From positions 1 through 30,570 of the IMG/VR virus record IMGVR_UViG_3300037882_000734: a stretch of 30,570 bases of DNA. The stretch is one strand, 5' to 3'. Positions 3,277-23,253 of the stretch are shown piece after piece (the first letter of the stretch is position 1; each line of letters begins with the position of its first letter). The DNA is from a virus. Under the pieces are notes generated by a model that saw only the letters and a program-made list of their open reading frames with translations, searched no databases and was not told the DNA's origin. Made by a program: the position numbers and the translations under genes.

Positions 3277-5426
3277 GCGGCGAGTTCGTCTTTCCAGATG
3301 TTAGCGCGGATAGGGATGATCTCGCAGATGCGCGGGATCGGCAGGCTTGGCGTGGGCGCGGTGAAGGCGAAGCCGCCGGAGATTGACCACTTGCGGGCGA
3401 GGTATTGCTGGACGGCTATAACTTGAGCCGCTGTAAGCGATCCGTAGGATACGCACTCAGAGAACGTAATGTTACCAAAATTAGCCGCTGTTGAAGCGCC
3501 GGATGCACCGATAGTAATTCCATTGGGAACTCCTGCCCCAGCGTTTCCGGTAGTAGCGGTTAGCTTATTCGCCTGAAGCGATGAAGACGCCCCATTGACA
3601 ATTTCCGTGAAAATGAAATTAGTGTTTAGTGTGAAGTCTGTGTTCGCGGCAACCGATGAACCGGCGCTCATGTTAAGCTGTGGCGTGCTAGTAGTCTGGA
3701 TAATCGCGCCAGTATTTGCTGCCGAAGCTCCATCCCAAAGATAATCGCCGGATGTCCATGTGATATGTGAGCCAACGGTTAATCGAGAGACTGGTTGTGG
3801 CTGCGCAAACGCCGCCGCCTTCAAGTAGTCGTTGGAGCCGTCGAAGTAGAGGCAAGTGCGGGTGACGATGGTGGAGCCGCCGTTGAGGGTCCATGTCTCT
3901 CCGCTGGGGGATGCTACGGTCGTGCCGGATGTATATCGGGATGCGTCGAAGTCGGCGGCAAGCGTGCCACCGATGCCATTATAAATCTTAACCGAATATA
4001 TTTTGCCTGTGAATGGCTGTAATGCGCCAGCCGGTTCGCGCCCTATTGATAACTCAGACGTGCCGACATACAGGCTTGTTACCCCGGCATTTACAACGGG
4101 CGCACCCAACTGAGTCCATGAGGCTCCATCTGTGGATGTATAAAAGGTCGTGGTGTTTCCGCCCGCGCCATTGTCAGCATCCAGCGTTGCTCGCAGGTAA
4201 ACATCAGCTCCCGAGGCGGTTGGAAGCGCTGCGGTGGACACTCCTCCAATAAACGCACCGCTCCCGGTTGGGTTCCAAAAAAGTTGCACACCACCCCCAG
4301 CAGTGAGTCCGAAGAAATATGAATAATTTCCAGTAATCCATTTTGCTGCTATAGTCTGGACAGAGCCAGGCGCATAATTTCGTGCGGCAACCTTGGCTAT
4401 TAATTCAATGTCTCCAGCAATGTCGAATGAGGTTTGGCTTGGTGCAGAAATAGATATGCTTGTGCCTCCATTAAACCATCCGTAGTTCGTCCCGCTCCAC
4501 GGCAGATAAACCGGCTGCTTCGCCACCGTCCCCTGATACAAATCCCGCGCACCGCAGATTCGCGCACCGGTATCGCCGGAGGTGTTGATCGTGACGGTGG
4601 CGGCGTTGCTGCTGGACTCGGTGAAGCTGGTGGCGAGCTTACTAGCGGTGGCGAAGTTGGCGTCGAAGACGAGGGTGCCTGAAATCGTTCCTGTTAGTGT
4701 GGCTCGATATACGACGCCTGCGAAATTACCGGAAACCCCACCTGTAAATGAGCCAACAGCTAAAGCGTTTGCACTGTTTTGAACCGATGTTGGCGCGCCA
4801 CCAACGACCGTGCTGCCAAGTTGTGACCAAGTGCCAAAGGTCGTTCCAGTGTAGAACGTGACCGTGTAGCCAGCCGCTCCATTGTCAGCGTCAAGGGTTG
4901 CGCGCACTGATCCGCGAGACAGGTCGGTGAACGATACCGCTGCCGTTGATGTTGCGGACAATGTCGCTGCGCCGGTGCTCCAGTACAGCGTAAGCGTTCC
5001 GCCCGTGTTAAGCTGAAGTGCGTACTCCATGTTGGCCGGAACCACCGATGTTCCCTTGGCTATGAGTAACTGATTTCCGGTCGGAGTGTAATCATTCGCC
5101 ATGATGTCTGTGGCTACGTCAATATCCGCCGTAAAAGATACCGCCGCACTATCCGGCGAACTCGCATAATTCCCCGCCACCCCATTCAGCGCCAGCACGT
5201 TGACCGAGCTGTTGCCGGATTTGTCGGCCACGAGCGCAACGCGATTGGAGCCGTCATAGATCAGCGACGATAAATCGCTAATGTCATACCAAGCCGCCAG
5301 CCCCGTGATCGAGCGAGGATCAGAGATGCCCTGAACCTGCTGCCCCGTAAACGGTGCGCCGGTCGCAGCGAAGCCCGAGACCGTCAGCGCAACCGCTAGA
5401 ATCAGCCGTGTGAGTAGTGCGCGCAT
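3273..5426 (-). CDS. LamG/concanavalin-like fibre or adhesin with signal peptide, 717 aa
   Basis: It opens with a convincing Sec signal (MRALLTRLILAVALTVSGFA, then ATGAPF). A long beta-rich, Gly/Ser/Thr/Ala-rich body follows, with two related jelly-roll-type units (about residues 105-270 and 330-490). Each contains the same RATLDADNGA motif (near 175 and 412), then TFYT, W-x-QLG, and a strand ending the unit. This pattern fits LamG/concanavalin-like carbohydrate-binding domains. A third beta segment fills the C-terminus, with a possible YLARKW helix near the end. In a T7-like order this is the receptor-binding fibre position. A signal peptide on a virion protein is odd; a periplasmic or secreted phage adhesin is the alternative. 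Confidence 0.7.
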   Translation of the reverse strand: MRALLTRLILAVALTVSGFAATGAPFTGQQVQGISDPRSITGLAAWYDISDLSSLIYDGSNRVALVADKSGNSSVNVLALNGVAGNYASSPDSAAVSFTADIDVATDIMANDYTPTGNQLLIAKGTSVVPANMEYALQLNTGGTLTLYWSTGAATLSATSTAAVSFTDLSRGSVRATLDADNGAAGYTVTFYTGTTFGTWSQLGSTVVGGAPTSVQNSANALAVGSFTGGVSGNFAGVVYRATLTGTISGTLVFDANFATASKLATSFTESSSNAATVTINTSGDTGARICGARDLYQGTVAKQPVYLPWSGTNYGWFNGGTSISISAPSQTSFDIAGDIELIAKVAARNYAPGSVQTIAAKWITGNYSYFFGLTAGGGVQLFWNPTGSGAFIGGVSTAALPTASGADVYLRATLDADNGAGGNTTTFYTSTDGASWTQLGAPVVNAGVTSLYVGTSELSIGREPAGALQPFTGKIYSVKIYNGIGGTLAADFDASRYTSGTTVASPSGETWTLNGGSTIVTRTCLYFDGSNDYLKAAAFAQPQPVSRLTVGSHITWTSGDYLWDGASAANTGAIIQTTSTPQLNMSAGSSVAANTDFTLNTNFIFTEIVNGASSSLQANKLTATTGNAGAGVPNGITIGASGASTAANFGNITFSECVSYGSLTAAQVIAVQQYLARKWSISGGFAFTAPTPSLPIPRICEIIPIRANIWKDELAA

Positions 5427-7099: not shown

Positions 7100-9049
7100 T
7101 CAGTCCTCCGCATCAAGCCGGTTTGATTCCCATGCGCCTTCTGTGCCGAGTGATTCCGGCTCGTCGGCATTCTTGAGGCTCACGGCTACGGGAGCACCTT
7201 GCTCCTCTTTCTTTTTCTCCATGATACCCGGCAGCACTTTGCCGCGTCGGCGGCACCATTCCACGAGAAGCAGGGAAACGTCGGCCTCGTCCGGCGATGT
7301 GCCGTGGTTGCGGGCCTTGTAGATTTCCTTGGCCTCGACCTGAACCTTTCCGCCCTTCACGTTGTAGTATCGGCGGGTCGTGAGCTGCGAGAACAGCGGC
7401 GATGTCGGCACGATTGGGTTAATCAGCATCGCGCATACCACCGGATCAAGCCACCGCTTGAACGCAAACCACAGCTCGGTCGCCTTCAGCTTGTAGGTAT
7501 CGTAGGCACTCATCTGATCGTCCGACAGAATCTTATCCTCCGATGCCGCCGTTCCGCTTTCAACTCCGAGCACGTTGCCCCAGTAGGTTTTGAGGTGGGA
7601 CCACACGCCAGCGGCATTTCCGCCTGAGTCCATGGCTAGATTCTCCGGCTTGATGCCCATGCCTGTGCATCGACCCATGACTTCCTGCGCCATCTCGGTT
7701 GCGCTTGATGTCTTCGGGAGCTGAAAGAGTTGGTCGAGCACGCAGACATGCTTGTTGATTTTCTGCGTAGGATCGGCGCGGTTCACGAACCATTCCATCT
7801 TGCCATCGGCGTGCGTCCATCCAGCGGCCTCGCCCCAACGACCTACGCCAAGGATGGCTTTGTCTCCGCCGCCGAGGGCCGTGTCCATGGCCGCGATGTT
7901 CTCAACCTCGCCAACATAGACCGGCTCGCCGCGCTGCGACTGAACCCACGAAGGCGGCACAATCGTATAGGCATTGTCCTTCAATGGCGGAAATCCCCGG
8001 CCCTTGGCCCAATATGCGGCGGAGTGCTCGCCTGCGCGAAGGAAGCCGACGAACGCCTCGTAGGTGAGCATTCGCGGGTAGATCGTGCGACGCTCGACCA
8101 CGTTCTCGAACAGCTTACCGTCCAAGCGCAGCACGGGATAGCCCTGCTTAGATGTCCACTCGTAGAGCGTGTCAACCTGCTCGGCATCCCAGCCCTCCTC
8201 CGGCTCTGCCATCTGCACGATCTTGTAGGTGATGCCCTCGGGGTTGCATGGCATCACGATCTTTACCGTGTCCATCGTTGGATCAATGGATGCCTCCGTG
8301 GTCTTGATGTCCTCAAAAGCACCGGGGGAAACCTGCGTACCTTCGTCGATTAGGATGAACAGCCGCGTGCTGTTTCCGTATCTCGGATGCTCAGGCTTGC
8401 GGTATGGCTTTGGCTTGTGGCCACGCAAGGCACCGGCAGAAATCTGCGATTGCTTACAAAGCACGCCCTGAATGCGCATCTCGGGCAGCGCGTCATTCAT
8501 GCTGATGAACAGGTCGGTCTCGTTGACCTTTACCTTGTTCGCATCGTCATCCGTCATCGGGATCACCGCGCCTTTGTGGAGCGCAACCAAGTGGGAAAAG
8601 AGATTGGTGTAAAGATGGTCCTCAGACGGAGCGGCCAGCTTAACGGCAGTCCAAAAAGGATCGCGCCGCCATTCTAAATAGAAGAGTACGCCACATGAGA
8701 ATGTCTTACTTAAGCTGCTGCCGCCCAATATGATAAGTTTACTATTCTCCTGCACCTTGCGAAACACATCGCGCACCACCTTGGGCCGAGAATCAAACAT
8801 TCCGTTGCCCCAAAGCAGAATCGCAATCTCAATGAACTTGCCTTCGTCAGCCAAGTTTTTCTCCAACGCCTGAAGCACATCGACCGCCTCCTGCTTGTCA
8901 GTCACCACGTCTTCTGATCCGCTGGCGCTGATAGCGAGATTCGCGGCCTCCATCCAGCGTTCACCTGACGTTGCGTTATCGCCTGCGCGAGCCGCTTCCA
9001 CGCCCTCGGCTATTGCCTCGTGAATAATTTGTAGAATTTCTACGTTCAC
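7100..9049 (-). CDS. terL: Terminase large subunit, 649 aa
   Basis: This is the DNA-packaging motor that pumps genome into the prohead and cuts the concatemer. The N-terminal ATPase shows a variant Walker A (GGSSLSKT, residues 109-116) and a Walker B (LFILIDE, 230-236), followed by a MPCNP coupling-type motif (267-270). The C-terminal RNase H-like nuclease has candidate acidic residues at AMDT (Asp 389), AMDSGG (Asp 474) and SPDEAD (Asp 587/590). About 100 residues precede Walker A, longer than in many terminases. The start is GTG, overlapping the stop of the upstream gene as GTGA, with a GGAG nine bases before it. Confidence 0.93.
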   Translation of the reverse strand: MNVEILQIIHEAIAEGVEAARAGDNATSGERWMEAANLAISASGSEDVVTDKQEAVDVLQALEKNLADEGKFIEIAILLWGNGMFDSRPKVVRDVFRKVQENSKLIILGGSSLSKTFSCGVLFYLEWRRDPFWTAVKLAAPSEDHLYTNLFSHLVALHKGAVIPMTDDDANKVKVNETDLFISMNDALPEMRIQGVLCKQSQISAGALRGHKPKPYRKPEHPRYGNSTRLFILIDEGTQVSPGAFEDIKTTEASIDPTMDTVKIVMPCNPEGITYKIVQMAEPEEGWDAEQVDTLYEWTSKQGYPVLRLDGKLFENVVERRTIYPRMLTYEAFVGFLRAGEHSAAYWAKGRGFPPLKDNAYTIVPPSWVQSQRGEPVYVGEVENIAAMDTALGGGDKAILGVGRWGEAAGWTHADGKMEWFVNRADPTQKINKHVCVLDQLFQLPKTSSATEMAQEVMGRCTGMGIKPENLAMDSGGNAAGVWSHLKTYWGNVLGVESGTAASEDKILSDDQMSAYDTYKLKATELWFAFKRWLDPVVCAMLINPIVPTSPLFSQLTTRRYYNVKGGKVQVEAKEIYKARNHGTSPDEADVSLLLVEWCRRRGKVLPGIMEKKKEEQGAPVAVSLKNADEPESLGTEGAWESNRLDAED

Positions 9050-9519
9050 TCAACAATCTCCATGGGCTCAATCTCCACCGGCTTGGCCTTGCCGACCAGA
9101 TTCTTGAGTCTGCGCAGGCGTGCATCGGGCGAATTGCCGCCAACATGATTTGCCCCCTGTGCTCCGCCCTTCGCCGCCGCGAACACCAGTCTCTCCAGCG
9201 CGTTCGCCAGATTGCCGTCGCCCTTCGATGCCGAGTAGGCGCGGTCCGACATTTCATCAATCATCTGTACGCCCTCTACCAGCGTCTTGAGTTCTTTGGG
9301 GTCGATCTCCGCATTGGGATTATCGAAGAAGGGTTTCATGGCACGCTCTGCCAGCACGCGCAGCTTGGCCACGTTGACCTGCATCATCGCCCGATTGGCT
9401 ATGGCGTTGGCCGCAACCTCGTAGCGACGGCCCTTCTCGCGGACGTTGAACGTCTCAACGAACGTGTCGCGATCAACGTCCGGTTGCGTCGGGACTATCT
9501 GTTGGCCCTCATCGGCCAT
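9046..9519 (-). CDS. Terminase small subunit candidate, 157 aa
   Basis: This helical, charged protein has a central helical stretch (EKGRRYEVAANAIANRAMMQ) and an acidic segment, and ends with a Pro/Glu tail. It sits immediately upstream of the large terminase with a GTGA overlap, the usual place for the small subunit that recognises packaging DNA. A strong AGGAGG precedes its ATG. No clear HTH is visible, so the call rests on position, size and helical content. It could equally be another packaging accessory protein. Confidence 0.5.
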   Translation of the reverse strand: MADEGQQIVPTQPDVDRDTFVETFNVREKGRRYEVAANAIANRAMMQVNVAKLRVLAERAMKPFFDNPNAEIDPKELKTLVEGVQMIDEMSDRAYSASKGDGNLANALERLVFAAAKGGAQGANHVGGNSPDARLRRLKNLVGKAKPVEIEPMEIVE

Positions 9520-10250: not shown

Positions 10251-13200
10251 TTAGGGGGCCTGATTCCGCTCCATGCGCAACCGGCCTCGCGCCTGATTAT
10301 CACGCGACACCACGCGAGACTTATGCCCCGGCTTCGGCGTGATGCCAAAAAGCTCGGGGTACTTGTCGGTGAAGCCTTCCAGTGCGAATAGCTGCGCCTT
10401 TCCGGCCTTTGCGCCTGCGGAATAGACGCGGTTCAAGTACTCGATCTTGGCCTCGGGAATGACCTCACTGGAAGAGAACCGGGGGTCGGAAGCGACCTTG
10501 CGCCCAAGGGTCTCGCGGAACTGGCCAGTAAAGTCCTGAAGCAGATCGTAATCCTTGGCATCAAGCTCAACGGTGACTCCGTTGTTGCTGACGTTGCGCG
10601 TCACAAGCGGCGGGTAAACGTCGGTCGAGCGCGTCTGCCGATAAAGCTCCAGTAGGGATTGCTTGAACGGGTCCGGGGCCTTGCGTTCGCCTTTGGTCAC
10701 GTCAATAAACTGCGAGATGATCGGATTCTGCCCCTCTGGCGTGCGCGTGATCGGCTTGCCCCAGAAGTCGCGCTTGTAGTTCTGCCTCTCGGATTGGTCG
10801 AGCTGACCTGTTTTGTAGCCCCAGACGTTGCGCAAGGTCTCCGTGGTGGTGTCGCCCTTCTGCTCGGGGATGAATTTGTATTGCGTGCGATTGAACGCCT
10901 CAAGCGAGTTGGGCGCGGCAACCGAAGTCACGGCGCGGAAAGTGTTTTGCAGGAATCGGTCGCCGTAGTTGTCCCAGTCCTTGAAGGCATCAAGCGCGGC
11001 AGATGTGCCAGCCAAGAACGACTGATCGAAGGCGAACCCGGCAACGTCCATTACGTTTAGAAACGCCTCAAAGTCGCCGCGCTCATTGGGGATTTCGCCG
11101 GTCCTCGACGCGCTGTTCACGTCCGAAGACTTCATCTTCGTTAGCGCATAGAACGAAGCTGCCGCCGGACCCATGGAACTCCAGTCAACGGTGTGGTCGC
11201 CGCGCTTGTATGTGGGGTCTCCGCCAGCTTGCAGGCGTTCAAGTCCGCTGATGTTGAGACGCTGCGCGCCCATGGTTTCGTACTGCGACGACCGGCGTTT
11301 CTTGTCCTTGGGGTCAGCAGGCTCGGAAATGAGGCCCTTGTCCCACAGGTAGCCAGCGGCACCGAGCAGCATGAATCCGATGGTGGCTTCGCCCATGTTG
11401 CGCAGAGCTTCGCGCTGATTTCCCTTTGCGGCCTGAGCCCAAGCGCGGGCCATGCCCACAGGAGGAAGCGCGAAATTCGCCGCCGTGATCGCGAAATTAG
11501 CAGGGAATTGGCGGTAAGGGATAGTCAGCGTGCCAAGAACTTTATTCGCGTCCTCAAGCCACGCTGGGCGACCTTGGCCCATGGTCTCGGAAATATCCAC
11601 CAGCCACTCATCCATGAATTTTCCAACCTTGAGCGCAGCCTTATTTTCCTGCGCCAAGATACCGCCCATGGATTCAGTCTCCATTAGCTTCTGCGTCTCG
11701 GGATCAGGAAGCAGCATGAATTTCTCACGCTCAACCCCCTTGAGTCCACGCAGATTGGCCTGCTCGGTCAGGATACGCTGCTGCACGGCGTAGCGAACTG
11801 GCTTGTCGCCAATGTTGAGGAATCGGAACGACGCCTCGGGAGCGATGCCAAGCGTGGCTTCGATCAGTTTCTTAGCTCGGTCGTTGATGCGCACTTGGCC
11901 GGATGGCGTGCGGGGAAGGGAGGCGATTCCGGCGCGCTCCATGGCGCGTTCGGCGGCAGGAAGGCCGGATACTGTTTGCAGCATCGCCCTGAGCGGATGA
12001 AACCCGCGCTGAACTTCGGCCTTAATGTAGGATTCCGATGATGGCCCGGTTAGCATTTCTTTTCCGGCAATACGAATGCCTTCACCAAATGCCTTCAACT
12101 CTTCGCCAGACGGTAACGGGTTTCCTAACCCCATAACACGAGGCTTTCCGGCGGCACCAGAGTATATCGCATCAAATCCGGTAGCCACCGACTCCGATCC
12201 GCGAAGAAGCGTCTGCCATGCGGCATTGCCGAACATATTCTTGGCGAACGATAGCGGGGCCAGCAGATTGCCCTTGATGATCTTGCTGACGATTTGACCG
12301 TATCGCTCTGGAATGATGTCCTTGGTGTAATCAGCCAGCGCCTTCTTGCTTTTGCCTACTGCGCTTTCCGCCGACTTGAACTCATCGCGGGTAGTCGGAT
12401 TGAAGTCCTTGCGCGCCGCACGCTCAGCCTTGGCGAATCGCGTCTCGGCCTTGATGTTTTCGGACGACAAATCAAATAGCTTCTTGCGGACGGATGGGGT
12501 TAGTTGCGGGAGCGGCTTACCCTTCGGGATGGCAAGGCGAAGGGTCTCCTCGACCGCTTTGACCATAGCCTCCGGCGAACGGATAAGTCCGGCGAGACCG
12601 AGAATCTGGGCAGGGGAGGTGAAGTTCTTGGAGAACTCAGCGATGACGCGAGCGCCTTCCTGCTCCATACCCGGCGTGACAGACAAGCGGCTCCCGATTT
12701 CGGCCTGAGCGGAAATGCGCAACAGCGGATCGCCCGAGGTGAGCATCTGCTGAAGCTCGGCCTCGGATGCGGACGCCACGGTATCGCGGTATTGGTTTCG
12801 GGAAATCTTGTCGTAAATGATAGCCGGATCGTCGGCGAGAGTCTGGCGCAGTTGCTCGGGGTAGCTGCGGTTCTCGATCACTTTCTCTGCCGTCTGGCGG
12901 ATACCTTGACCGGACTCGACTTCGGGGAGGGCTACCGCGCCGCCCATGGGCTTCTTTGCCTTGGACTCGCGCAATGCCTTTGCTCCGCGAGAAAGCGAAC
13001 CGGCAGTAAGCACCCCGCTTCCAAGTCCAACACTCGCGCCAAACAGCGTAGCCTTCAGACGGCGAGCTTGGAACTGTTCTTCGGTTTCTCCTTCGCGGCG
13101 TTCGGTGGCAGCGTAGCCGGTCGTCGCGCCTGCTGCTGCTCCGCCCAATGGGGCGAGAACGGAAGCCGGGACTGACCCCCGCTGCCCTCGACGGATGGAA

Positions 13201-15665
13201 GCAGCTTTAGTCGCAGCCGTGGAGCGGCCCTGCTGGGACGCGGACTCCGGGGCCTGCTGACGCAGGAACTCGGCCTCGCTCAACGCCCCTTGCGAGGCTT
13301 CGGCTTGCGCAGCGGCAACTGTTTGATTATTGGCGTTTGCGTCGGGAGCGACGGCGGCGGGCTCAGGAATGGTGCGAGGGGTTGCATTGGTGGGTTTCTC
13401 CAGTGGGTTTTTAACAACAAGATCGACCTGATTTTCAGGGAACCAGTAAACCTTAACGTCGTGAGGCTTGAACTTGCCTTTTCCGGCAGCGAGACCTCCA
13501 ACATCACGCCATCCACCGTAGCCAAGTTTCGACAGGCCGAGCGCAGCGTCATCAAAATACTCCTGAATTTCATAGGCCGGAATGTTGTATTCCTTGGACA
13601 GTCCTCGCATCTCGGAGAACAATCGCCCGAGAGTCTTATTCTCGCCGATAGATTCTAGCGCGTCCTCAACGATGCCGAGTCGGTCTGATTGTAGTCCTGT
13701 GGCCGAAAGAATTTCATCAGACAACGGCGTGTTTAGATCAAAGAATTTCACCGGGGCTTTTTCTGTGATCTGATAAACGGTCGGCTGTGATTGGTCCCCC
13801 TTGGCGCGATTCTTTTTCTGGTATGATGACGCAACATCAAGGGCATCGGTCGTGTATAGTCCGCTTCCAAGGACATTCATTTCACTCCCGCCGTATGAGC
13901 CTCCGGGAGCCAGTTCAAACGGCTTTGCCGCGCCGTGATATTGCACGCCGAGGCCACGGGTTTCAGGAAGTTTGGCGGGAGTAGATGATTCCACTGCCGT
14001 GATCTCCGGTGGCACCCCTCCATGCCGGTTCTTAATGTCCTCGGTGGCTTGCCACACCTTGTTGAATTCTTCGGTGCCCGCTTTGTCGTAGCCGAGCTTC
14101 GCCATCTGGGCTTGCAGTGCATCGTACTCCTTGCGGTCGGATGCGATCTTAACGGGATCGGATTCAGTAGGCGGGCGACCAGCGGCAACCGGCTCAATCG
14201 CAGCCTGAGCAGAGGCAGCCACCGGAGCCTCCGGCACCGCCGTCATCTGATTCAGCTTTTCCTGCAAAGCATAAGGCGAGTTCTTGGTCTGCGTGGCCAC
14301 TTCGGTAGCGACATTCGCAATGCTTGGCGTCGTGGTCACGGGCTCGGCCAGAATCTTCGCTGACTCCGGCATCTCCGGTGGCTTCTGGACCTCCGCAATC
14401 GCCTTCTGTTGATCGGCCACGGCGCGCTGCTGATCCTGCATGGCTTTCTGCTCGGCGTTCGCCGCCTCCTCCAAAGCCTTCTGTGCCTGAATCTGGCGCT
14501 GCAATTCCTGCTTCAAATCCAAAGCGCCGCGTTGCTCGGCTGGCGTCAGGTAGTCTTTCTGCAAGCGAATCTCTTGGTCGATCACAGTAATCTGCTGCTC
14601 GGGAGTTTTGCCCATCATGCGCTCGGCAAGCTGGCGAACCTTCTCCGCATCGACTGATTCATCCAGCGCACCAACATATCGCTGACCTTCGGCTCGCACT
14701 CCGGCAGATTCCGCCGCAACATCGCCGCGTGCCGCTGACATCATGGCCAACTCGTCCGGCGCAATGGAAGTTGGGGCCGGGATCGGAAGCGGCTCACGCA
14801 TGGCTTGTCCGACGGGGATAAGCTCAGACGGGATAGCTGATGTCTGCGCATTTGGCAGCACGAGATTCGGGGCGATCCGTTGACCAAGGCGCGTCTCCCT
14901 ATTGAGGAACGCAGCGCCACCCGCCGCCAAGGCCAATTGCTGCGGATCAAATTGGCCAGCCGCCAATTGCTGCGAGCCCTCGATGCCGCCACCGATGGCG
15001 CCTGAAATAGCGGGAACGGCAATGCGAGCGCCGCCCGTTGTGTTGACCGGAAGACCCGGACGAAAAAATGGAAGCCCGCCAGCCATCTGACCGATCATGG
15101 CCCCCGTTGGGCTTTCGCCTGCGGCCTGCGCTCCTGCCTCGTAGCTCGCAGCCACTTGCTCCGGCAGGATGCGCGGCAGGTATTCGTCCTCCGCTGCCCG
15201 TGTCAGCATGGAGGCGACGCCACCGGCGACCAATGGAACGCCGTATTGAATGACGGGTGCAGCCAGCTTTCCCGCCCCCGGAATCAGGCGAGTTGCCCTT
15301 GCGGCGGCAGTGGCGTATGGAGAGACCGCAGATGCGGCGGCGACACCAGCGCCCGTAGGTGCGACGCTCTTTGCGGCCTCGGAGCCAAATGCTGCGACGG
15401 AGGCAGGGATAGGCACCGAAACCAACGGCTCATCCATACCAATGAGGCGAACATCTGCCGTGTATTTGGTGCGCGCCTCCTCGGCATCACGCTCCTCCTT
15501 AACGCGCTTGGCGTTGGCAACAGACTGAATGTAGTCACGGCGCAGTTTGGCCAGTCCTTCCTGCGAGTAGATAGACGGCTCATCAAAAACCACACGACCG
15601 CCTGAATCGGGTGCATCAAAAGTGACCCGACCTGAGCTAATGGGATCGTCGAACTTTACCGGCAT
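10251..15665 (-). CDS. Giant internal (ejected) virion protein with ART-like domain, 1804 aa
   Basis: By position (last of three internal-protein genes before the terminase block) this corresponds to T7 gp16, but it is longer and I see no lytic transglycosylase motif. The N-terminus has three short repeats of V-x-FD-x-P (FDDP, FDAP, FDEP). Small-residue hydrophobic stretches lie near 85-160, 845-900 and 1430-1445, suitable for membrane insertion after ejection. A Gln/Ala-rich coiled coil occupies about 356-435. Residues about 570-745 resemble an ADP-ribosyltransferase fold: VQYHGAAKPF (near 575), LGSGLYTTDALDVASSY (near 600), and a later acidic helix. The C-terminal half is helical, with scattered aromatic motifs (FKDWDNYGDRFLQN). 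No frameshift is evident. Confidence 0.8.
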   Translation of the reverse strand: MPVKFDDPISSGRVTFDAPDSGGRVVFDEPSIYSQEGLAKLRRDYIQSVANAKRVKEERDAEEARTKYTADVRLIGMDEPLVSVPIPASVAAFGSEAAKSVAPTGAGVAAASAVSPYATAAARATRLIPGAGKLAAPVIQYGVPLVAGGVASMLTRAAEDEYLPRILPEQVAASYEAGAQAAGESPTGAMIGQMAGGLPFFRPGLPVNTTGGARIAVPAISGAIGGGIEGSQQLAAGQFDPQQLALAAGGAAFLNRETRLGQRIAPNLVLPNAQTSAIPSELIPVGQAMREPLPIPAPTSIAPDELAMMSAARGDVAAESAGVRAEGQRYVGALDESVDAEKVRQLAERMMGKTPEQQITVIDQEIRLQKDYLTPAEQRGALDLKQELQRQIQAQKALEEAANAEQKAMQDQQRAVADQQKAIAEVQKPPEMPESAKILAEPVTTTPSIANVATEVATQTKNSPYALQEKLNQMTAVPEAPVAASAQAAIEPVAAGRPPTESDPVKIASDRKEYDALQAQMAKLGYDKAGTEEFNKVWQATEDIKNRHGGVPPEITAVESSTPAKLPETRGLGVQYHGAAKPFELAPGGSYGGSEMNVLGSGLYTTDALDVASSYQKKNRAKGDQSQPTVYQITEKAPVKFFDLNTPLSDEILSATGLQSDRLGIVEDALESIGENKTLGRLFSEMRGLSKEYNIPAYEIQEYFDDAALGLSKLGYGGWRDVGGLAAGKGKFKPHDVKVYWFPENQVDLVVKNPLEKPTNATPRTIPEPAAVAPDANANNQTVAAAQAEASQGALSEAEFLRQQAPESASQQGRSTAATKAASIRRGQRGSVPASVLAPLGGAAAGATTGYAATERREGETEEQFQARRLKATLFGASVGLGSGVLTAGSLSRGAKALRESKAKKPMGGAVALPEVESGQGIRQTAEKVIENRSYPEQLRQTLADDPAIIYDKISRNQYRDTVASASEAELQQMLTSGDPLLRISAQAEIGSRLSVTPGMEQEGARVIAEFSKNFTSPAQILGLAGLIRSPEAMVKAVEETLRLAIPKGKPLPQLTPSVRKKLFDLSSENIKAETRFAKAERAARKDFNPTTRDEFKSAESAVGKSKKALADYTKDIIPERYGQIVSKIIKGNLLAPLSFAKNMFGNAAWQTLLRGSESVATGFDAIYSGAAGKPRVMGLGNPLPSGEELKAFGEGIRIAGKEMLTGPSSESYIKAEVQRGFHPLRAMLQTVSGLPAAERAMERAGIASLPRTPSGQVRINDRAKKLIEATLGIAPEASFRFLNIGDKPVRYAVQQRILTEQANLRGLKGVEREKFMLLPDPETQKLMETESMGGILAQENKAALKVGKFMDEWLVDISETMGQGRPAWLEDANKVLGTLTIPYRQFPANFAITAANFALPPVGMARAWAQAAKGNQREALRNMGEATIGFMLLGAAGYLWDKGLISEPADPKDKKRRSSQYETMGAQRLNISGLERLQAGGDPTYKRGDHTVDWSSMGPAAASFYALTKMKSSDVNSASRTGEIPNERGDFEAFLNVMDVAGFAFDQSFLAGTSAALDAFKDWDNYGDRFLQNTFRAVTSVAAPNSLEAFNRTQYKFIPEQKGDTTTETLRNVWGYKTGQLDQSERQNYKRDFWGKPITRTPEGQNPIISQFIDVTKGERKAPDPFKQSLLELYRQTRSTDVYPPLVTRNVSNNGVTVELDAKDYDLLQDFTGQFRETLGRKVASDPRFSSSEVIPEAKIEYLNRVYSAGAKAGKAQLFALEGFTDKYPELFGITPKPGHKSRVVSRDNQARGRLRMERNQAP

Positions 15666-15671
15666 GGCGAA

Positions 15672-16721
15672 TTACTGCCACGTTGCCGGACGCCCGCCAA
15701 TAATAATCTTCACCGGGCCTTTCCAGCCCTGAGACTTCGCGGCGGCTTCAGCTTCTTCGACGGTGTTGAATGAGGGCGCGGCGGCGGTATTGCCGGACGG
15801 AGCGGAGAATATCTCCTCAACGCCAACCGGCTGACCAGCGCGGGTGATGATCGCCTGCTGCTGCGGAGTCAGGCTTGGGGCAAACGACGCATTGAGCGGA
15901 TCGCGAGCCACGGCCTTGTTGCGAACCGCAAGTTGCGCCAAGGCTTCCGCGCCCTGAGCCGTCTGCGCCAATTCGTTTGCGGCTGCGAGCGTGAGCCCCG
16001 CGTCTGCGGCCATGGTCTCGATGCGCCGCTGGTAGGCCGTGCCTTCCGGCAGGAATCCGGGGCGAGTGTTGAGCCGATCAATTCTCGCCTTGTAGATGGA
16101 CGCGGCTTCCGTGTCGCCGGAATCGACCGCGTTATTGTAGAGATCAACAAGCGACGTTGACTCAAATTCCTTTCCGCGCAAACGCTGGGTAGCAAGCGCC
16201 TCCGCCGACTTGAGAGCCATCGCCTCCTTCGCCGCCACCGCCGCCACATCCCCCGCCGTAGCCAGCGTATCCCTGCGCTCAACCGGACGCGCTTCTCCAC
16301 CAGCCATAACCTCAAGCCCGCGAGTCACGCGCTGCCGAGGGGTGAAATGCTCGGTGATTTGGAAGTTCTCGAACGACGCGCCGGGATCAACCGGACGAAG
16401 CTCCTTGGTGCCGCCGATAATGTCCACGCTTTGAGGCACGAACTGCGGGATCGCCGCCTGCTGTTGAGCCTCGCCCAAACGCAACGCGGCCAATTGCTGT
16501 TCAATCGGGGCCTGCGCCAAGCGGTTCTGAGCCTCCTGCAATTGAAGCTGCTGGAGTTGGCGCTGAATCGGAATCTGGCTGAGTTGGTTGTAGAGGCCGG
16601 CGCCTTGGCTGATCGCCGGTATGATGTTGCTATACTGCGGCACCATTAGGCGCGGGTCAGCAAACTGCACGTTCGGCATGTTCTGAACGCTAAAACCGGA
16701 GGTGGTAATTGGCGATGGCAT
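15672..16721 (-). CDS. Internal virion protein, gp15 position, 349 aa
   Basis: The first 100 residues are Gln/Leu/Ala-rich (QLSQIPIQRQLQQLQLQEAQ) and predict a long amphipathic helix. The middle is Ala-rich and helical. The protein ends in a short motif, FNTVEEAEAAAKSQGW then VKIIIGGRPATWQ, a beta-type C-terminal tail of a kind repeatedly seen at the end of phage internal or virion proteins. It lies 1 nt from the upstream 480-aa gene and 6 nt from the 1804-aa gene, the order of T7 14-15-16. No enzyme motif is present; the role as part of the ejection channel is inferred from position. Confidence 0.6.
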   Translation of the reverse strand: MPSPITTSGFSVQNMPNVQFADPRLMVPQYSNIIPAISQGAGLYNQLSQIPIQRQLQQLQLQEAQNRLAQAPIEQQLAALRLGEAQQQAAIPQFVPQSVDIIGGTKELRPVDPGASFENFQITEHFTPRQRVTRGLEVMAGGEARPVERRDTLATAGDVAAVAAKEAMALKSAEALATQRLRGKEFESTSLVDLYNNAVDSGDTEAASIYKARIDRLNTRPGFLPEGTAYQRRIETMAADAGLTLAAANELAQTAQGAEALAQLAVRNKAVARDPLNASFAPSLTPQQQAIITRAGQPVGVEEIFSAPSGNTAAAPSFNTVEEAEAAAKSQGWKGPVKIIIGGRPATWQ

Positions 16722-16722
16722 G

Positions 16723-18165
16723 TTACGGCTTCAAGAATGCAGTCGTTGATGGATATGTCGCATTGGGCGACGGTGCGGAGTAGTTAACCGCCGGAGCCTG
16801 TGGCCGGAAGTAATTTCCGGCGAATCCGCCGACCGCGCCGAGAATCTGGCCACCAAGCGCGGCCTGCTGATTAGCGGCCCCGGCTGCGAGAGCGTTGGCG
16901 TTTTGCTGGGCATTCGCTGCCATGTTTGAATTGCCCACCGCCAGATTTACTATTGAGCCGGGGTCAAGGCCGGACTGAGGCTGTGCGATGCTCTGCCCGA
17001 ATTGCGCGCCCGCCATTGCCCTAGAGAAATCGCCAGACTGGATGCTCTGGATGAGGTTGTTTTGATTGAAGTAGTTCGATGCCTCTTGAGCCGCTGCCTG
17101 CTGCGCAAGTTGCTGCTGCTGGAAATACGCCTGCAATTGCTGGGCCTGATCTGCTGCCGTTGCACCTTGCGATTGAAGCAGGTTATTGCGCGCATACTGC
17201 TGGGCCTGAAGACCCATAGCGGCATTGCCTTGATTTAGCCCGACCTCTGCCTGCCCGGCTTGCAATGCTTGCTGAAGTCTCGCGTTCTCAAGCTGAAGGG
17301 ATGTTAGCCCCAAGTCGCGGGCCACAATATCCCGGCCGAGGCCGAGTCCTTGTGACACGGTGCCGGATTTGGCGAGACCCTGACGCGCAATGAGATTGCG
17401 AACGTCTTGCGGCAACATTCCACCAAGGGCCAAATCCGACTGCGCCTTGGCGATTGCGGCGCGGGTAAGCGCCGAATCATACGATGCGCCCTCAAGCGGC
17501 TTACCGGCCTGAGCAGAGACCCTTGCAAGCAACTCCTGATTGGCTGCACTCACTGGAGCCGAGCCCGGAGTATATGCACCCGGAAGCTGGCCCTGTATTC
17601 CTTGAGATGGAGCATTTATTTGCCCAAGAAGCGCATCTAATCCCGCAGTCCTGACCGCGCCAGCACCGGGATTATACATGTCCTCAAGCGTCCTTGAGTT
17701 CGCCGCATTCTGAAATGCGATAGACTGAGCCGCTTGCTGTGCAGCGCCAAGATTAACGCCGCCTGACCCGTTGCCTACCCCTGTCGGAACTTGCATAGGG
17801 ATTATTTCACCAGCCTGCTTTCCGATGTTATTGTAATAATCTTGAGCGATCATCTCATCGGTCCATTCGGGGCCGTAGTAACCGTTCGCACGATTCGTAG
17901 AGATGTGCCTAGCAACATTTGGCGTCGCTGCGTAACCCGAAATATCGGGCTGAGTGCCGGTGTAGGCGGATGCAGCGTTGGCAGCGGCGGCGTTAGCGGA
18001 TGCCCCTGATGCGGCTTTTTTGGCGTCAGACATGCCTTGAGCGGTCATAGCAAGACTACCTACTGCCGCACCCGCAAGCAAGCCTGTGCCCAAGGTTAAT
18101 CCACCAATGCCAGCCGCGCCGGCACCGGCACCGGCAATCACTGGAATTAATGCTGCTGCTGGCAT
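16723..18165 (-). CDS. Internal virion protein, gp14 position, 480 aa
   Basis: The N-terminus contains an Ala/Gly-rich hydrophobic hairpin (about residues 5-45, including GTGLLAGAAVGSLAM) able to enter a membrane. The rest is Gln/Ala/Asn-rich, with a long helical region at about 280-400 (QQLQAYFQQQQLAQQAAAQ). The C-terminal 40 residues are Pro/Ser/Tyr-rich. T7 gp14 has a comparable N-terminal membrane-active segment and the same place in the gene order. The start is preceded by a GGGGGG run about 10 bases upstream. Likely ejected into the cell envelope on infection. Confidence 0.6.
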   Translation of the reverse strand: MPAAALIPVIAGAGAGAAGIGGLTLGTGLLAGAAVGSLAMTAQGMSDAKKAASGASANAAAANAASAYTGTQPDISGYAATPNVARHISTNRANGYYGPEWTDEMIAQDYYNNIGKQAGEIIPMQVPTGVGNGSGGVNLGAAQQAAQSIAFQNAANSRTLEDMYNPGAGAVRTAGLDALLGQINAPSQGIQGQLPGAYTPGSAPVSAANQELLARVSAQAGKPLEGASYDSALTRAAIAKAQSDLALGGMLPQDVRNLIARQGLAKSGTVSQGLGLGRDIVARDLGLTSLQLENARLQQALQAGQAEVGLNQGNAAMGLQAQQYARNNLLQSQGATAADQAQQLQAYFQQQQLAQQAAAQEASNYFNQNNLIQSIQSGDFSRAMAGAQFGQSIAQPQSGLDPGSIVNLAVGNSNMAANAQQNANALAAGAANQQAALGGQILGAVGGFAGNYFRPQAPAVNYSAPSPNATYPSTTAFLKP

Positions 18166-18167
18166 AA

Positions 18168-18635
18168 TTAAATATCCCCCCGGTTAATTTTAAAGTAAGT
18201 GATATTCACTGATTTTCCGCCGCGAGTGGCCGGCCACTTCTCCGTGTTCTGCTGGGTCATTCCCACGGCGCGACAGAACCAAGCCACGGAGGGAGAATCG
18301 GACCAAGCATAGGAGGTGATGGATTTTTTCTCCGTGTGGCTGAAAACCCAGCGAATGCCTTCTTTGGCCAAGTTGATAGCCGTGCGACCACGGCAGTTAT
18401 CGAGCAGAGCAGTGTGAACCTCACAGGACTCGCCCTTATCAACCAACCAGAAGCACCCCGCTTCAACACCATCAACCAAAGCCTTTAGGAAGAATCCGGG
18501 GATCGACATGGCCGCATGAAAATCCAGCTTACTCTGATCGGAGCAAGAATCGTCGGAAATCTTGGCGTAGATTTTTGGGTTCAGGAACACGGATTTAATG
18601 TAGTCTTCGTCAGTCGTTGGTTCAATTGTTATCAC
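18168..18635 (-). CDS. GNAT acetyltransferase-like protein, T7 gp13 position, 155 aa
   Basis: I start it at the GTG (VITIEPTTDEDYIKSVF) four bases after the 260-aa stop; the longer frame starts with TTG and would overlap that gene by 83 nt. The layout is that of a GNAT fold: N-terminal strand and helices, central strands (GFFLKALVDGVEAGCFWLVD), then the acetyl-CoA-loop-like CRGRTAINLAKEGIRWVF and a last strand-helix (SPSVAWFCRAVGM) ending KSVNITYFKI. T7 gene 13 encodes a small virion protein with a similar fold at the same place between gp12 and gp14. Substrate unknown; it may have become structural. Confidence 0.65.
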   Translation of the reverse strand: MITIEPTTDEDYIKSVFLNPKIYAKISDDSCSDQSKLDFHAAMSIPGFFLKALVDGVEAGCFWLVDKGESCEVHTALLDNCRGRTAINLAKEGIRWVFSHTEKKSITSYAWSDSPSVAWFCRAVGMTQQNTEKWPATRGGKSVNITYFKINRGDI

Positions 18636-18639
18636 GGGA

Positions 18640-19422
18640 TCAGGAGAAGCGTCTGGCGCGAATCGTGCCTGCCGCGTTAGCGTCCGTTGAGAAACCGGAT
18701 GGGCCGGCGACCAAGTAAACAACAGTCGATGTCGCGACTGAGATTCGGCGAATGGGCGTGACTACGGTGTAGTCGATTCCGTTTGCGTTCAGGGCTTGAG
18801 TAAACGCATCTCCGCCTGCATCAACTCCGCCAAGAGCGTTATTGGAAAGGGAGATCGACCCAGTGAGCGGCAGGGTGTAGCCGTCGTAAAAGTTGCACGC
18901 CCCAACAGCTTGAAATAAAACAACTCCAGACACATCCCAGTCGCCCGGAGTAAGCGTGATTGATGTGACTGTCTTCGGGGTAGATGGGACCAGCGCAACG
19001 CCGCTGGCCTCCAGAACGGTAGAAGCAAGATACTCGCCATTCACGCCAACGCTTGTCCATGCTCCGTTGTAGTAGATGTTCAGAGAAACGGGAGCGCCGC
19101 CCACAGTGGTCTCAATCCAGAACTGATAAACGGCCGGGTCCGGTTCAGTGGAGCCGATATAATATCCAAGCGACTGCGGCTCGATTGTGATTGGAACGTA
19201 CGCCCCAGCCGTGTTGCTCCACACCCACCACTCGGTCCCATTCTTGAGCCACGGGCCGACATTGGATGACGGCTCTGTGCTCCCAGTGACGAACAGTGCG
19301 AACGTGGCTTGCGTGACAAGCGACATGCGCTGGATCATGGCCTCAGCCAATTGTTGAGGCGTCCAGCGGACTTGGGGTGGCAGGGCACCCATTTGCAGCG
19401 TGATTGGAAGATTGTTGGCCAT
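18640..19422 (-). CDS. Beta-rich virion/tail protein, 260 aa
   Basis: Not matched to a named family. The first 40 residues are helical (PPQVRWTPQQLAEAMIQRM). A middle part contains two related segments starting LFVTGSTEPSSNVGPWLKNG and YYIGSTEPDPAVYQFWIETT, i.e. a duplicated GSTEP-containing beta unit of the type found in small tail/fibre subunits. The C-terminal 100 residues are a beta sandwich-like stretch (SITLTPGDWDVSGVVLF). It lies between the nozzle and the internal proteins, so a fibre or appendage attached to the tail tube is plausible. No Shine-Dalgarno is seen. Confidence 0.6.
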   Translation of the reverse strand: MANNLPITLQMGALPPQVRWTPQQLAEAMIQRMSLVTQATFALFVTGSTEPSSNVGPWLKNGTEWWVWSNTAGAYVPITIEPQSLGYYIGSTEPDPAVYQFWIETTVGGAPVSLNIYYNGAWTSVGVNGEYLASTVLEASGVALVPSTPKTVTSITLTPGDWDVSGVVLFQAVGACNFYDGYTLPLTGSISLSNNALGGVDAGGDAFTQALNANGIDYTVVTPIRRISVATSTVVYLVAGPSGFSTDANAAGTIRARRFS

Positions 19423-19582: not shown

Positions 19583-19786
19583 TCACACCACCCACAGAAA
19601 TACCAGAATTGCGGTAGTCACCAACAAAAGCCACGCCGGAAAAGAAGCATAGGAGTTCCAGAGTTTGCGGCGGCGCTTACATTTTTCGCAGTCACGGAGG
19701 TCCGTGGACCAAACCCAGTCGATCAGGTAAACGACAGGGCGGAACAGATAGTAGGCGAGGTCGCCGAGGCCGAATGGGGTTTTCAT
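19583..19786 (-). CDS. Small protein with C-x2-C and a C-terminal TM helix, 67 aa
   Basis: The sequence starts MKTPFGLGDLAYYLF, has a CEKCKRRRKLWN motif (Cys about 33 and 36, then basic residues), and ends in a hydrophobic helix (FPAWLLLVTTAILVFLWVV). It starts in an ATGA overlap with the nozzle gene. Small phage proteins with a DL-rich N-terminus and C-x2-C-x-R/K motif are common beside tail genes, but their function is unassigned. The terminal helix suggests membrane association, perhaps during infection or lysis. Confidence 0.65.
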   Translation of the reverse strand: MKTPFGLGDLAYYLFRPVVYLIDWVWSTDLRDCEKCKRRRKLWNSYASFPAWLLLVTTAILVFLWVV

Positions 19787-22700
19787 GGTGTTGATCTAAC
19801 GCTGCCAATAAAAGAGAAGTTGAGTGAGTGCGGAATGGAGTCTATATACCACAACATTGAAATGGAGGCCGACCAACTGTAATCGCTTGGCCCGGGGCAT
19901 GTGCCATTGAGACCAAACACAGAAAAGTCGTCTGGCTCGACGGGATTTAGCGTGACATCGGTTACGGTAAACACACCAACCGGGTCCATAACAACGGAGG
20001 TTGGGTCGAAATAAACTTGGCCAGACCCCACGGGATTGCTTATTAAAACAAATATATTCGGAGAGCATCCCGCGCCGGAAAACGCACTGCCCAAGTCAAT
20101 CTCCATGCCCTCTGTGATAGGATTTTCCCCATAAGTAATTTCTACATCTTGCCAATTAATTGGCGCGAGGGTTCCGTCCTCCGTGAACGTGTGATAGGTG
20201 TATCCGTTGTATTCATCTACGGTTCCGCCCGTGAAAACAGGCGAGCCGAGATAGCGCACGACTACGATGCCTTGGTAGCCGCTGGTTGCATCCGGGAAGT
20301 TCTGGCTCCCACCACCACCTCCGCCGCCAAAGTTGGTTGCTTCCGTGGACGAGTCATCTGTCTGCGCTCCGCCTCCACCACCAGACGCGCCGGCCCCGCC
20401 ACCACCCAAACCATCTGTAGCGCCTCCACCACCGCCACCAACTTCCGGGTCCGATATGAATGAGCCATAATCCACCCAATGTGAATCCAGAGTTGCGCCA
20501 TCGCCGCCGTCACCACCTGATCCCGGTAGCGTATTGCCGTCTTGTCCGACGCCTACAGCTCCGCCGCCGCCGCCGCCCGCGTTCAACGCGCCAGCGCCAC
20601 CACTCACTTCTCCTCCTGCACCACTTCCGCCACCACCGCCTGTCGGAGCCGGTTGCCCACTCCCTTCCTCTCCTTCACCAGCATAGAGATTTATTGCCCC
20701 ACCCGAAAATTCAGATGGAGTTGCTGGATCAGGAACTTCACCCGGAACAGCAACACCACCAATCCCAACCGTGACAGTGTATGTCTCCAGTGGGTCCAAA
20801 GCTTGTGCAAGGGCCTCGACAACCTCCCCACCACCGCCGCCACCGCCGACGCCGCCTACATCCATATTTCCCGCTCCATAGGAGCATCCGCCACCTCCGC
20901 CACCGATAAGCAGTATGTCACCAAGTAATCCACTGCTCCCCACCGTCAAAATCGCCGCCGAGCTAAATACCTCGCCGCAAGCATTCGCAGCCACGCACTT
21001 GTAGCGATAGTCATCCATGCCAGCCGTCGCGCCAGTGATTGTTAGCGTCTGCGTAGTCGCGCCAGAATAAACGCCGCCGTCCGCGATGTTGCCGAAAGTT
21101 GCGCCGCCATCGGTGGACTCTTGCCATTGATAGGTGATCGGAAGTGAGCCCTCCGCCGTAGCGTAGAAGACAGCGTTGCCGCCATCCTCAATTTCAACTG
21201 CCGACGGATTCTGAATGAAATAAGGGCAATCTGGATCATCTGTCACATCCTGCGGCCTACTCACCACCACATAACTCTCGCCCCCAATCTCCGCCGCCAC
21301 CGTATCGTAAACCCCCTCTGGGATATTCGACTGATGAAACTTTGCGATAATCTGCTGCACGGCGCAATCAGCCAACGCCTGCGCATTCTCCTGCGAGATG
21401 ACCGACACTGCCTCTCGCCGGATATAAACATCGCCACCGTAGGCCGTGGTCGTCATGCCTTCAGCATAGGCTGTGAAAGTCTCGAAAACGCCGCCATCGA
21501 CCAGTAGCTCCAGTCCTGAGCAACCCGCCACCGTCAACGTCCTTGGGCTAACCTCGGGCTCCTCGCAGTCACCGTCAAATCTCTCTGGCGACTCGCGCAT
21601 GTACATCTGGTAGGCTCGCAACCCCATCTGCCCACTCCAGACGAGCAGGTGAGAGAAGGCATAGTCGATCATATTACCCTCCTTGCTCTCGACCCCGCAA
21701 GCATTGCAGTCGTTGTTGCTCGGATCGGAGGGCGTCCTGATCGTGCGCGACTGGACCGTGTTACCGATCATCAATGGACCGGCTTCCGAATACTCGGTGT
21801 CCATGAATATCTGACCGGGGCTTGCAACGATGTGATATGATTTCTGGAACTGATAACTTCCCTTTGTCGAGGCGACGTAAACATTGAGATCAACGTCGCC
21901 GTAGATTTGGGAAAGGAAGAACTTGGACCAATCATACTTTTTCTGATTCAAGTTCCCAACGGCATGATCGCGCAACTGAGCGTAGCAAGTGATGGCGCAA
22001 CCGTTGTCCGTCTTTTCCGGTAGCATAGCCTCCCAAATCCGGTTCTTCCCATCATAGTCAATCGACCCAAAGAACACGCGCTCGTCGCCATTCACGACGC
22101 CACGAGCCCATTCGATAGGACGCCAGCCAGTCCATATCCCGGTCCACGCATTAGCGTTGTCCTGCTTCGGAGCCTGATCCAGCGCCCATGTGTGGCGATT
22201 AAGGACATCGGCAGACGGCACCGAAACCATCATATAGTTTTCGTAGAAACCTGAGCAAACCCCGCTTAAATCAGGCCCAAGATACGCCTTGGAGGAAAAC
22301 ATCTGGTTGTCCTGATAGTCGATTCGGCTGGATAGATTCAGCCGAAGGGCAGCGTTGAAGTTGGTTAGTCCCCTTGGGGAGAACCACCAGTTGAGCCCAT
22401 ACTGAGTAATCAACGACCGAGGGGCAATGCACCCGATATTCGGCAGAATGATTTTCTGAAACTCCGGGGTATTCAGCCATTGCGTCCTCTCCTGAATCGA
22501 GGACTGGAAGTACGTGCCGTCATTCTCCGTAAACGCGATGATGCCCTGCTGCTCAGGGGTTGAGATGAATCCCGTGCAAGGACCGCTAAGGTAGAATGCC
22601 CTCCCTTCGTTCAGATATTGAGCCTCCGTAAACTTCACAGGATTTCCAATGTCTGAGGCGAAGATTTGATTTCCGCTGCTGACCCAAAGACGATTTCCGG

Positions 22701-23253
22701 CCCAGATCATCCACAGCCCAATGGGCGTGCCTTGATAGCCTTGTGTCGCCACATCCGTTCCGCCGGGAGCCGGGGCCGGATTTATATGAGCCGACGTTCC
22801 GCCATCCCAGAATGCAGCCCTCGTGAGACCGTCCTGAATAATCAGTACCGAATACGGATCATCGAGCGCATACAGCTCACCGTCCAGCGTGTAGTCCGTG
22901 CTTTTGAGTGTATTGCACCAAGCGATGTACTTTGCCGTGGGCGAGAACTGCAAATTCCAAAGGCGTCGATAGCTTGTGAACGGCGCAGACGAGACGTAAA
23001 TCTTCCCATCAACAGCAGAGACGATCTGCGCGATGCCATTGTCGGGAGTGAATAGCGTCATGCCCTGAAAGTTTCCGTCGGGCAAACAGAACAAGGAGCG
23101 AGAACCGGGGCGCGTCTGGATAATGCCACCGCGACAGACAATGTTCTGCCCCATGACATAGAACGTTTCACCTACCTCAGTGGGCGTGGTATAGCTGTCC
23201 GCTCCACGAACGAGCGAGGATGATCCTGCGATAAAGTCTCTGGCGTCGGCCAT
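19783..23253 (-). CDS. Tail tubular B/nozzle-like protein with Ig-like and polyglycine domains, 1156 aa
   Basis: The first ~600 residues are beta-rich with repeated Trp/Gly/Asp-containing strands (NWWFSPRGLTNFN, WTGIWTGWRPIEW) and fit the nozzle/tail tubular B role (T7 gp12) that its place after the gp11-like gene predicts. Residues about 672-772 form an Ig-like domain: ITYQWQESTDGGATF, then DDYRYKCVAANACGEVFSS. About 776-1000 is a glycine-rich domain (many GGGGGG runs, flanked by GDILLIGGGGGG and IVVVRYLG). The last 150 residues are a beta domain with paired Cys. Fused Ig and glycine-rich modules suggest surface binding. The nozzle assignment is by position and strand pattern. Confidence 0.75.
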   Translation of the reverse strand: MADARDFIAGSSSLVRGADSYTTPTEVGETFYVMGQNIVCRGGIIQTRPGSRSLFCLPDGNFQGMTLFTPDNGIAQIVSAVDGKIYVSSAPFTSYRRLWNLQFSPTAKYIAWCNTLKSTDYTLDGELYALDDPYSVLIIQDGLTRAAFWDGGTSAHINPAPAPGGTDVATQGYQGTPIGLWMIWAGNRLWVSSGNQIFASDIGNPVKFTEAQYLNEGRAFYLSGPCTGFISTPEQQGIIAFTENDGTYFQSSIQERTQWLNTPEFQKIILPNIGCIAPRSLITQYGLNWWFSPRGLTNFNAALRLNLSSRIDYQDNQMFSSKAYLGPDLSGVCSGFYENYMMVSVPSADVLNRHTWALDQAPKQDNANAWTGIWTGWRPIEWARGVVNGDERVFFGSIDYDGKNRIWEAMLPEKTDNGCAITCYAQLRDHAVGNLNQKKYDWSKFFLSQIYGDVDLNVYVASTKGSYQFQKSYHIVASPGQIFMDTEYSEAGPLMIGNTVQSRTIRTPSDPSNNDCNACGVESKEGNMIDYAFSHLLVWSGQMGLRAYQMYMRESPERFDGDCEEPEVSPRTLTVAGCSGLELLVDGGVFETFTAYAEGMTTTAYGGDVYIRREAVSVISQENAQALADCAVQQIIAKFHQSNIPEGVYDTVAAEIGGESYVVVSRPQDVTDDPDCPYFIQNPSAVEIEDGGNAVFYATAEGSLPITYQWQESTDGGATFGNIADGGVYSGATTQTLTITGATAGMDDYRYKCVAANACGEVFSSAAILTVGSSGLLGDILLIGGGGGGCSYGAGNMDVGGVGGGGGGGEVVEALAQALDPLETYTVTVGIGGVAVPGEVPDPATPSEFSGGAINLYAGEGEEGSGQPAPTGGGGGSGAGGEVSGGAGALNAGGGGGGAVGVGQDGNTLPGSGGDGGDGATLDSHWVDYGSFISDPEVGGGGGGATDGLGGGGAGASGGGGGAQTDDSSTEATNFGGGGGGGSQNFPDATSGYQGIVVVRYLGSPVFTGGTVDEYNGYTYHTFTEDGTLAPINWQDVEITYGENPITEGMEIDLGSAFSGAGCSPNIFVLISNPVGSGQVYFDPTSVVMDPVGVFTVTDVTLNPVEPDDFSVFGLNGTCPGPSDYSWSASISMLWYIDSIPHSLNFSFIGSVRSTP

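Follow-up and report, generated by a model that had tools for sequence, protein, structure and literature searches.

Introduction

Can the largest protein of a viral ejection apparatus deliver an enzyme to the host at the moment of entry? The question is raised by the 1804-amino-acid (aa) product of an open reading frame (ORF) at positions 10251-15665, minus strand, of the virus record IMGVR_UViG_3300037882_000734. The window analyzed here is the entire record (30,570 bases), which may itself be a fragment. An earlier note, made from the sequence of this DNA alone, had read the pattern YHG...LGSGLYTTD...ASSY (residues 576-615 of the protein) as the mark of a polyvalent-type ADP-ribosyltransferase (ART) domain at 13433-13958 within an ejected virion protein, and had put forward structure prediction and comparison with ART folds as the means to check it. 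The reading we favor, with a probability of roughly 0.6, is that the domain is an ART-fold effector cassette in the largest ejectosome protein, which would ADP-ribosylate a host target on entry.

An ART-like domain in the 1804-aa protein

The domain was delimited at residues 569-749 (13419-13961, minus strand) from its closest relative, a family profile, a structural model and fold matches, with boundaries close to those first proposed. Searches of Pfam, PHROGs and PDB sequences with the single window sequence returned nothing usable; the only Pfam match was to DUF3990 (E 0.26), and a match to interferon-gamma was dismissed as chance. Scanning viral contigs with a 216-aa stretch recovered one relative, in the uncultured virus L001 (42% identity over ~198 residues, E 2e-41), and a search with a two-sequence alignment again found L001 alone in viral contigs and none in genome contigs. 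Pairwise BLASTP connects the domain with those of contigs L012, L141 and L035 (E 1e-24 to 1e-27), and tblastn with the domains of three members found no relative in phage records.

A larger family was compiled by scanning viral contigs at the DNA level with the pattern YHG[AST]...GxG[LF]YxT, which occurs in at least 120 stretches. Among the matches listed, a profile of the window/L001 pair identifies ~20 close full-length members, and the alignment used below (A2) comprises 19 sequences including the window. When 19 family members were compared with Pfam at E<=1, DUF3990 was matched by 18 (best 5e-7) and ART-PolyVal by 16 (best 5.1e-6). The gathering cut-off of ART-PolyVal (PF18760) was not reached: the window domain has no PF18760 match and the family members fall under the Pfam cut-offs, so that Pfam alone would have missed the domain. 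With filters off, the family profile also matched a 157-aa ORF at 9046-9519 (E 6e-4); this match covers the helical part alone and was taken as helix similarity.

The AlphaFold2 model derived from the 19 sequences has a pLDDT of 85.1 and a pTM of 0.81; an earlier model from two sequences was poor (pLDDT 57), with 9k3a already as its best match. In Foldseek, the only PDB structure to score under 1e-3 was 9k3a_B (E 1.8e-6), a pre-ejectosome protein of cyanophage A4, and the same structure is the best PDB match in VIA-align (Z 12.4 over 179 residues). The remaining VIA-align matches listed are all ARTs: diphtheria-type toxins (Z ~7, best 7.1), RES/ParT (6.5), AcrIF11 (6kyf; Z 6.5, 3.5 A over 123 residues, Foldseek E 5e-3), cholix/ExoA-type domains (~6) and PARPs (~5). 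Predicted viral structures were matched as well, among them proteins named ART-PolyVal, large polyvalent proteins and gp26 of Phormidium phage Pf-WMP3. Matches of the helical insert to HAD phosphatases cover the helices alone and were set aside.

Judged by the predicted structure, the domain is a member of the ART fold superfamily. The comparison proposed in the earlier note thus came out in favor of its ART-like domain, which is borne out by the modelled fold, the structural matches and the L001 relative; an unrelated fold was not seen. The probability that the similarity is merely a chance sequence in a linker, as the non-significant Pfam score of the single window sequence might suggest, is negligible in view of the L001 relative, the high-confidence ART model and the consistency of the ART matches.

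Conservation of the candidate active site

The N-terminal motif is prescribed by the first pattern, and for this reason the invariant YHG and G-x-G-[LF]-Y-x-T of the first set were not counted as evidence of conservation. A second scan used the C-terminal motif alone, G[YF]xGxxHxGG-x7-HxV, and required near-full-length coverage but no identity. Among the matches listed, to which this count refers throughout, the positions of window His577, Gly578, Gly600, Tyr604 and Tyr615 are invariant in 62 of 62 near-full-length domains. On the minus strand of the window, these residues belong to strand 1 (Y576-H577-G578, 13932-13940), to strand 2 (Tyr604, 13854-13856, in the motif G-x-G-[LF]-Y-T-T) and to the end of the helix following strand 2 (Tyr615, 13821-13823); Tyr615 lies outside both search patterns and is also invariant in 19 of 19 aligned sequences. 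His577 in strand 1 and Tyr604 in strand 2, together with Tyr615, correspond to the NAD site of the H-Y-x group of ARTs, and profile alignments to diphtheria-type and PARP16 ART domains, at weak E-values, bring these residues into register, His577 with the NAD-site His.

At the start of strand 5 (H-x-V-x-[IV]; residues 186-191 of the AlphaFold2 model), His735 (13461-13463, minus strand) is conserved in all 19 sequences of a set that was not selected for it. As third active-site residue it probably takes the part that an Asp or Glu usually plays, and we infer that it is the equivalent of the catalytic acid. With 62/62 and 19/19 conservation, a His/Tyr/Tyr site appears to be kept together with a strand-5 His. 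Close family pairs evolve under purifying selection, with dN/dS well below 1 (e.g. 0.030/0.93 and 0.048/0.45). The polyvalent-type assignment made earlier stands as far as kinship is concerned, given the similarity to DUF3990 and ART-PolyVal; the exact class does not, since the strand-5 acid is not conserved and an invariant His starts the strand.

ART domains of this H-Y-Y...H type are widespread in viral contigs, both pattern scans yielding at least 120 matches. Among the matches listed, 84 loci have a near-full-length domain, and in 59 of these it lies in an open frame of at least 900 aa.

The carrier as a probable gp16-type ejection protein

A gp16-C profile built without the window matches the 1804-aa protein at residues 1413-1679 (10629-11429, minus strand) with E 5.9e-7, the next ORF of the window scoring 0.03. 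In a comparison with shuffled sequences the protein obtained E 4e-6 and the best of 1000 shuffles 0.064. Its gene is the third of three consecutive large genes that follow a head-morphogenesis gene, all on the minus strand. The series starts with a 184-aa protein (18168-18722) that matches PHROG 651 'head morphogenesis' (E 6.7e-11) and, under the cut-off, DUF2824 (E 1.6e-4). It continues with two genes of fitting size and without family match: a 480-aa protein (16723-18165) whose N-terminus is hydrophobic and rich in Gly and Ala, occupying the first ejection-protein position, the place of gp14, and a 349-aa protein (15672-16721) in the second, the place of gp15.

The relatives of the domain occur in unmistakable T7-type ejectosome operons. 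In L012, L029, L090, L141, L156, L197 and L200, tubular B and gp13 are followed by a protein of ~180-230 aa (gp14), one of 480-850 aa (gp15) and, in last place, the ART-bearing protein in the gp16 position; L035 shows the same order from gp13 onward. The gp14 proteins of L012, L029 and L141 have Pfam matches (E 5e-18 to 4e-22), and PHROG 6651 'internal virion protein' is matched by L156 (E 4e-65) and L197 (E 1e-61). In L001 the ART lies in a 2310-aa protein, preceded by a tubular-B-like protein, gp13 (PF11090, E 5.7e-6), gp14 (PF24072, E 2.2e-14) and, where gp15 would be expected, a protein of 746 aa. The same virus seems to be represented twice by L156 and L200; with L001 included, these loci amount to eight or nine independent T7-like metagenomic contigs.

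On the basis of the gp16-C match and these operons, the 1804-aa carrier can with high probability be assigned to the gp16-type ejection proteins, which supports the virion location supposed in the earlier note. The N-terminal transglycosylase domain of T7 gp16 has no Pfam match in the protein; this domain is a T7 feature that is missing in P22-like phages (PMC8954989).

The 2310-aa protein of L001 (L001:6312-13244) presents an apparent second ART-like stretch (GIAGEGVYFTTD...DQVVIFDPNDANRIV, residues ~1270-1400) and a metalloprotease-like HENMH motif, features suggestive of a polyvalent ejectosome protein.

An accessory cassette in gp16-like proteins

Pseudomonas phage LUZ100 gp47, annotated as T7 gp16-like, is homologous to the L012 protein on both flanks of the ART domain (L012 residues 52-218 at 47.6% and 537-1388 at 37.3% identity). 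Between the flanks lie 152 residues in LUZ100 gp47, compared with 318 including the ART in L012. No match to the ART profile (E >= 0.38) was found in the gp16-like proteins of LUZ100, HTVC025P, ProddE, CRP-804, HTVC142P and the uncultured phage S39C11. Judged from the L012/LUZ100 sequence pair, the ART domain is an accessory cassette in a variable linker between conserved flanks, and it looks like a swappable effector, since it is present in the gp16-like proteins of several uncultured phages and missing from close relatives. The G+C content of the ART stretch in the window (52%, versus 60% in the rest of the 1804-aa gene) fits an imported cassette.

This distribution bears on the possibility that the domain is active on phage proteins, modifying its own polypeptide or others of the virion while the head is assembled or during ejection. 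The gene context implies that the protein is made late, in an NAD+-rich producing cell and beside other virion proteins, which speaks for such an activity. The accessory distribution speaks against it, and no partner gene for ADP-ribose processing turned up in the window within the searches done; we regard this explanation as improbable.

Proposed mechanism and evidence against it

By analogy with T7, the 1804-aa protein of this short-tailed phage would be packed in the head and expelled on adsorption, and its large C-terminal part would cross the inner membrane into the cytoplasm, as reviewed for T7 gp16 (PMC8954989). The ART would then draw on host NAD+ and ADP-ribosylate a target in the host close to the site of entry, before phage gene expression. 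Possible targets are the transcription machinery, as for T4 Alt, or an immune component, as for the ART-fold AcrIF11. Iyer et al. proposed host-target ADP-ribosylation at entry for polyvalent ARTs, modelled on T4 Alt (PMC5512222). In T7, gp14, gp15 and gp16 exit the head on adsorption; residues 1-228 of gp16 are periplasmic, whereas its C-terminal part (411-1118) is presumed to assemble into a ring in the cytoplasm (PMC8954989). In L012 the cassette is enclosed by the conserved N-terminal stretch and the C-terminal part and directly follows a Gly-rich segment of mild hydrophobicity (226-244); the LUZ100 counterpart of this segment, in the same place, is more hydrophobic. An ART in this position could end up on the cytoplasmic side of the membrane, with access to NAD+.

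Several points weigh against this reading. Ejection and cytoplasmic exposure are argued by analogy, and since NAD+ is essentially cytoplasmic, an enzyme located in the periplasm would be silent. The window candidates for gp14, gp15 and tubular B have no T7 family match in Pfam or profile searches, so that the virion location of the 1804-aa protein is argued from its gp16-C match and from the order of the genes. Catalytic activity is a prediction from the fold and the conserved residues. The family does not conserve the strand-5 acid typical of the polyvalent H-Y-D class. Within A2, Asp721 (13503-13505, minus strand) is specific to the window, its relatives having His (15/18) or Tyr (3/18), and the position of window Asp736, which adjoins the invariant His735, varies among relatives (Q, K, R, T, N, S or E). 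The lack of a conserved acid does not exclude activity, since some PARP-family mono-ARTs work without Glu.

Relation to known systems

Injected ARTs within giant virion proteins are already known and named, and the window domain is a variant of this polyvalent theme (Iyer et al. 2017, PMC5512222). The prototype of polyvalent-protein ARTs (Tox-ART-HYD2 clade; ART-PolyVal, PF18760) is found in the virion RNA polymerase of Roseovarius Plymouth podovirus 1 (RPP1), and known polyvalent ARTs carry an Asp in strand 5 (PMC5512222). The family profile recovers the RPP1 domain (E 1.5e-5), which shares with the window domain the strand-1 His, the strand-2 Tyr and a very large carrier predicted to be injected. 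Unlike RPP1, the window carrier is a predicted gp16-type ejectosome protein and not a virion RNA polymerase; unlike ART-PolyVal, the window family has no conserved strand-5 Asp, an invariant His at the start of the strand and a long helical insert between strands. T4 Alt is likewise an ART that is packaged in the head, injected and active as infection begins (PMC5512222), but it belongs to the R-S-E active-site clade and is a separate packaged protein outside the DNA conduit. With T7 gp16 and relatives such as LUZ100 gp47, the proteins of L012 and L141 share gene position and homologous flanks around the cassette, and the window carrier shares a C-terminal match, whereas LUZ100 gp47 and the other gp16-like proteins searched are devoid of the ART domain.

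AcrIF11 is also a phage ART-fold effector, directed against host immunity in the form of CRISPR (PMC12421852), although it is a small free-standing protein and not part of a virion protein. A narrower form of the reading proposed here would make the window domain an active anti-defence effector of this kind, modifying CRISPR or another immune component at entry in place of the transcription machinery. The presence of AcrIF11 among the best fold matches is in agreement with such a role, and an arms race over defence would be consistent with an accessory domain; the folds of other ART families are equally good matches, however, and the fold is silent on the target, which makes this specific version doubtful, if still a serious contender.

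The cyanophage A4 pre-ejectosome (9K3A) was reportedly described by Hou et al. in PNAS in 2025. Its chain B is identical to ORF27 of Anabaena phage A-4L, where an ART-like fold is located at residues ~1420-1610 (L125:20440-21012), with YHGT...GSGTYFS from ~1425. Pfam has no match in this stretch and the family profile reaches it weakly (E 1.5e-4). The resemblance to the window domain lies in an ART fold with this motif within a large ejectosome protein; the A4 domain differs in its location near the C-terminus and in not keeping the second Tyr and the strand-5 His.

These losses, the origin of the best structural match in a solved pre-ejectosome and the unconserved strand-5 acid, with an Asp721 of the window's own, are what would be seen if the ART fold had been retained as a non-catalytic structural or binding module, packing in the pre-ejectosome or docking on DNA, RNA or membrane. 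Structure alone, however, would hardly demand the invariance of His577, Tyr604, Tyr615 and the strand-5 His, and the existence of homologous gp16 proteins without the domain argues that it is not a required structural part. We consider a non-catalytic module unlikely in the window; it may be the case in A4.

Genomic neighborhood

The structural block is encoded on the minus strand and comprises, in order of transcription, genes for the 1156-aa, 260-aa, 184-aa, 480-aa, 349-aa and 1804-aa proteins, three small ORFs and the terminase large subunit (7100-9049, minus strand; tblastn against annotated TerL genes, E 5e-4 to 4e-3). The 1156-aa structural protein (19783-23253, minus strand) has weak PHROG tail and head matches and is a possible tail-tubular-B counterpart; its C-terminal extension contains long poly-glycine tracts, directly preceded by a possible immunoglobulin-like domain (residues ~690-775). 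T7-type tubular-B and gp13 profiles match no ORF of the window, which is therefore not called a T7-like phage. Neither the 1804-aa protein nor a possible capsid protein of 416 aa had a match in 50,697 phage records, and by these comparisons the source phage is far from sequenced phages.

Three further genes deserve mention. Downstream of the terminase, a 717-aa protein (3273-5426) combines a signal-like N-terminus with repeated lectin/LamG-like stretches (PHROG 5313, E 2e-39). A GIY-YIG/HNH homing-endonuclease-type gene lies within the structural block (25192-25977; PHROG 2081, E 4e-14, and also PHROG 5123), and an endonuclease VII-like gene is found at 29051-29830 (PHROG 1035, E 1.7e-15).

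Implications

As far as our searches reach, the new elements are the recurrent insertion of the domain into gp16-type ejectosome proteins, with a natural pair of proteins with and without it, the link to the fold of the A4 pre-ejectosome and the strand-5 His. Among the titles and abstracts covered by our literature searches, none joins ARTs with the gp16-type proteins of T7-like phages. In the usual view, T7-like phages take over the host by means of newly made early proteins, and ejection proteins are plumbing. We tentatively suggest a more general scheme, for which the odds are at present somewhat unfavorable: podophage ejectosomes may possess a swappable effector slot, in which the gp16 linker between N- and C-terminal parts takes enzymatic cassettes such as an ART with a strand-5 His, so that the conduit would disarm or reprogram the host at entry, before phage genes are read.

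LUZ100 and L012 provide a clean natural comparison of gp16-like proteins with and without the domain, which is small enough to be expressed, assayed and removed. The proposed function also suggests how the ART-fold domain of the solved cyanophage A4 pre-ejectosome may be interpreted. If true, it would make the ejectosome conduit a carrier of effectors, acting before transcription at the point of DNA entry.
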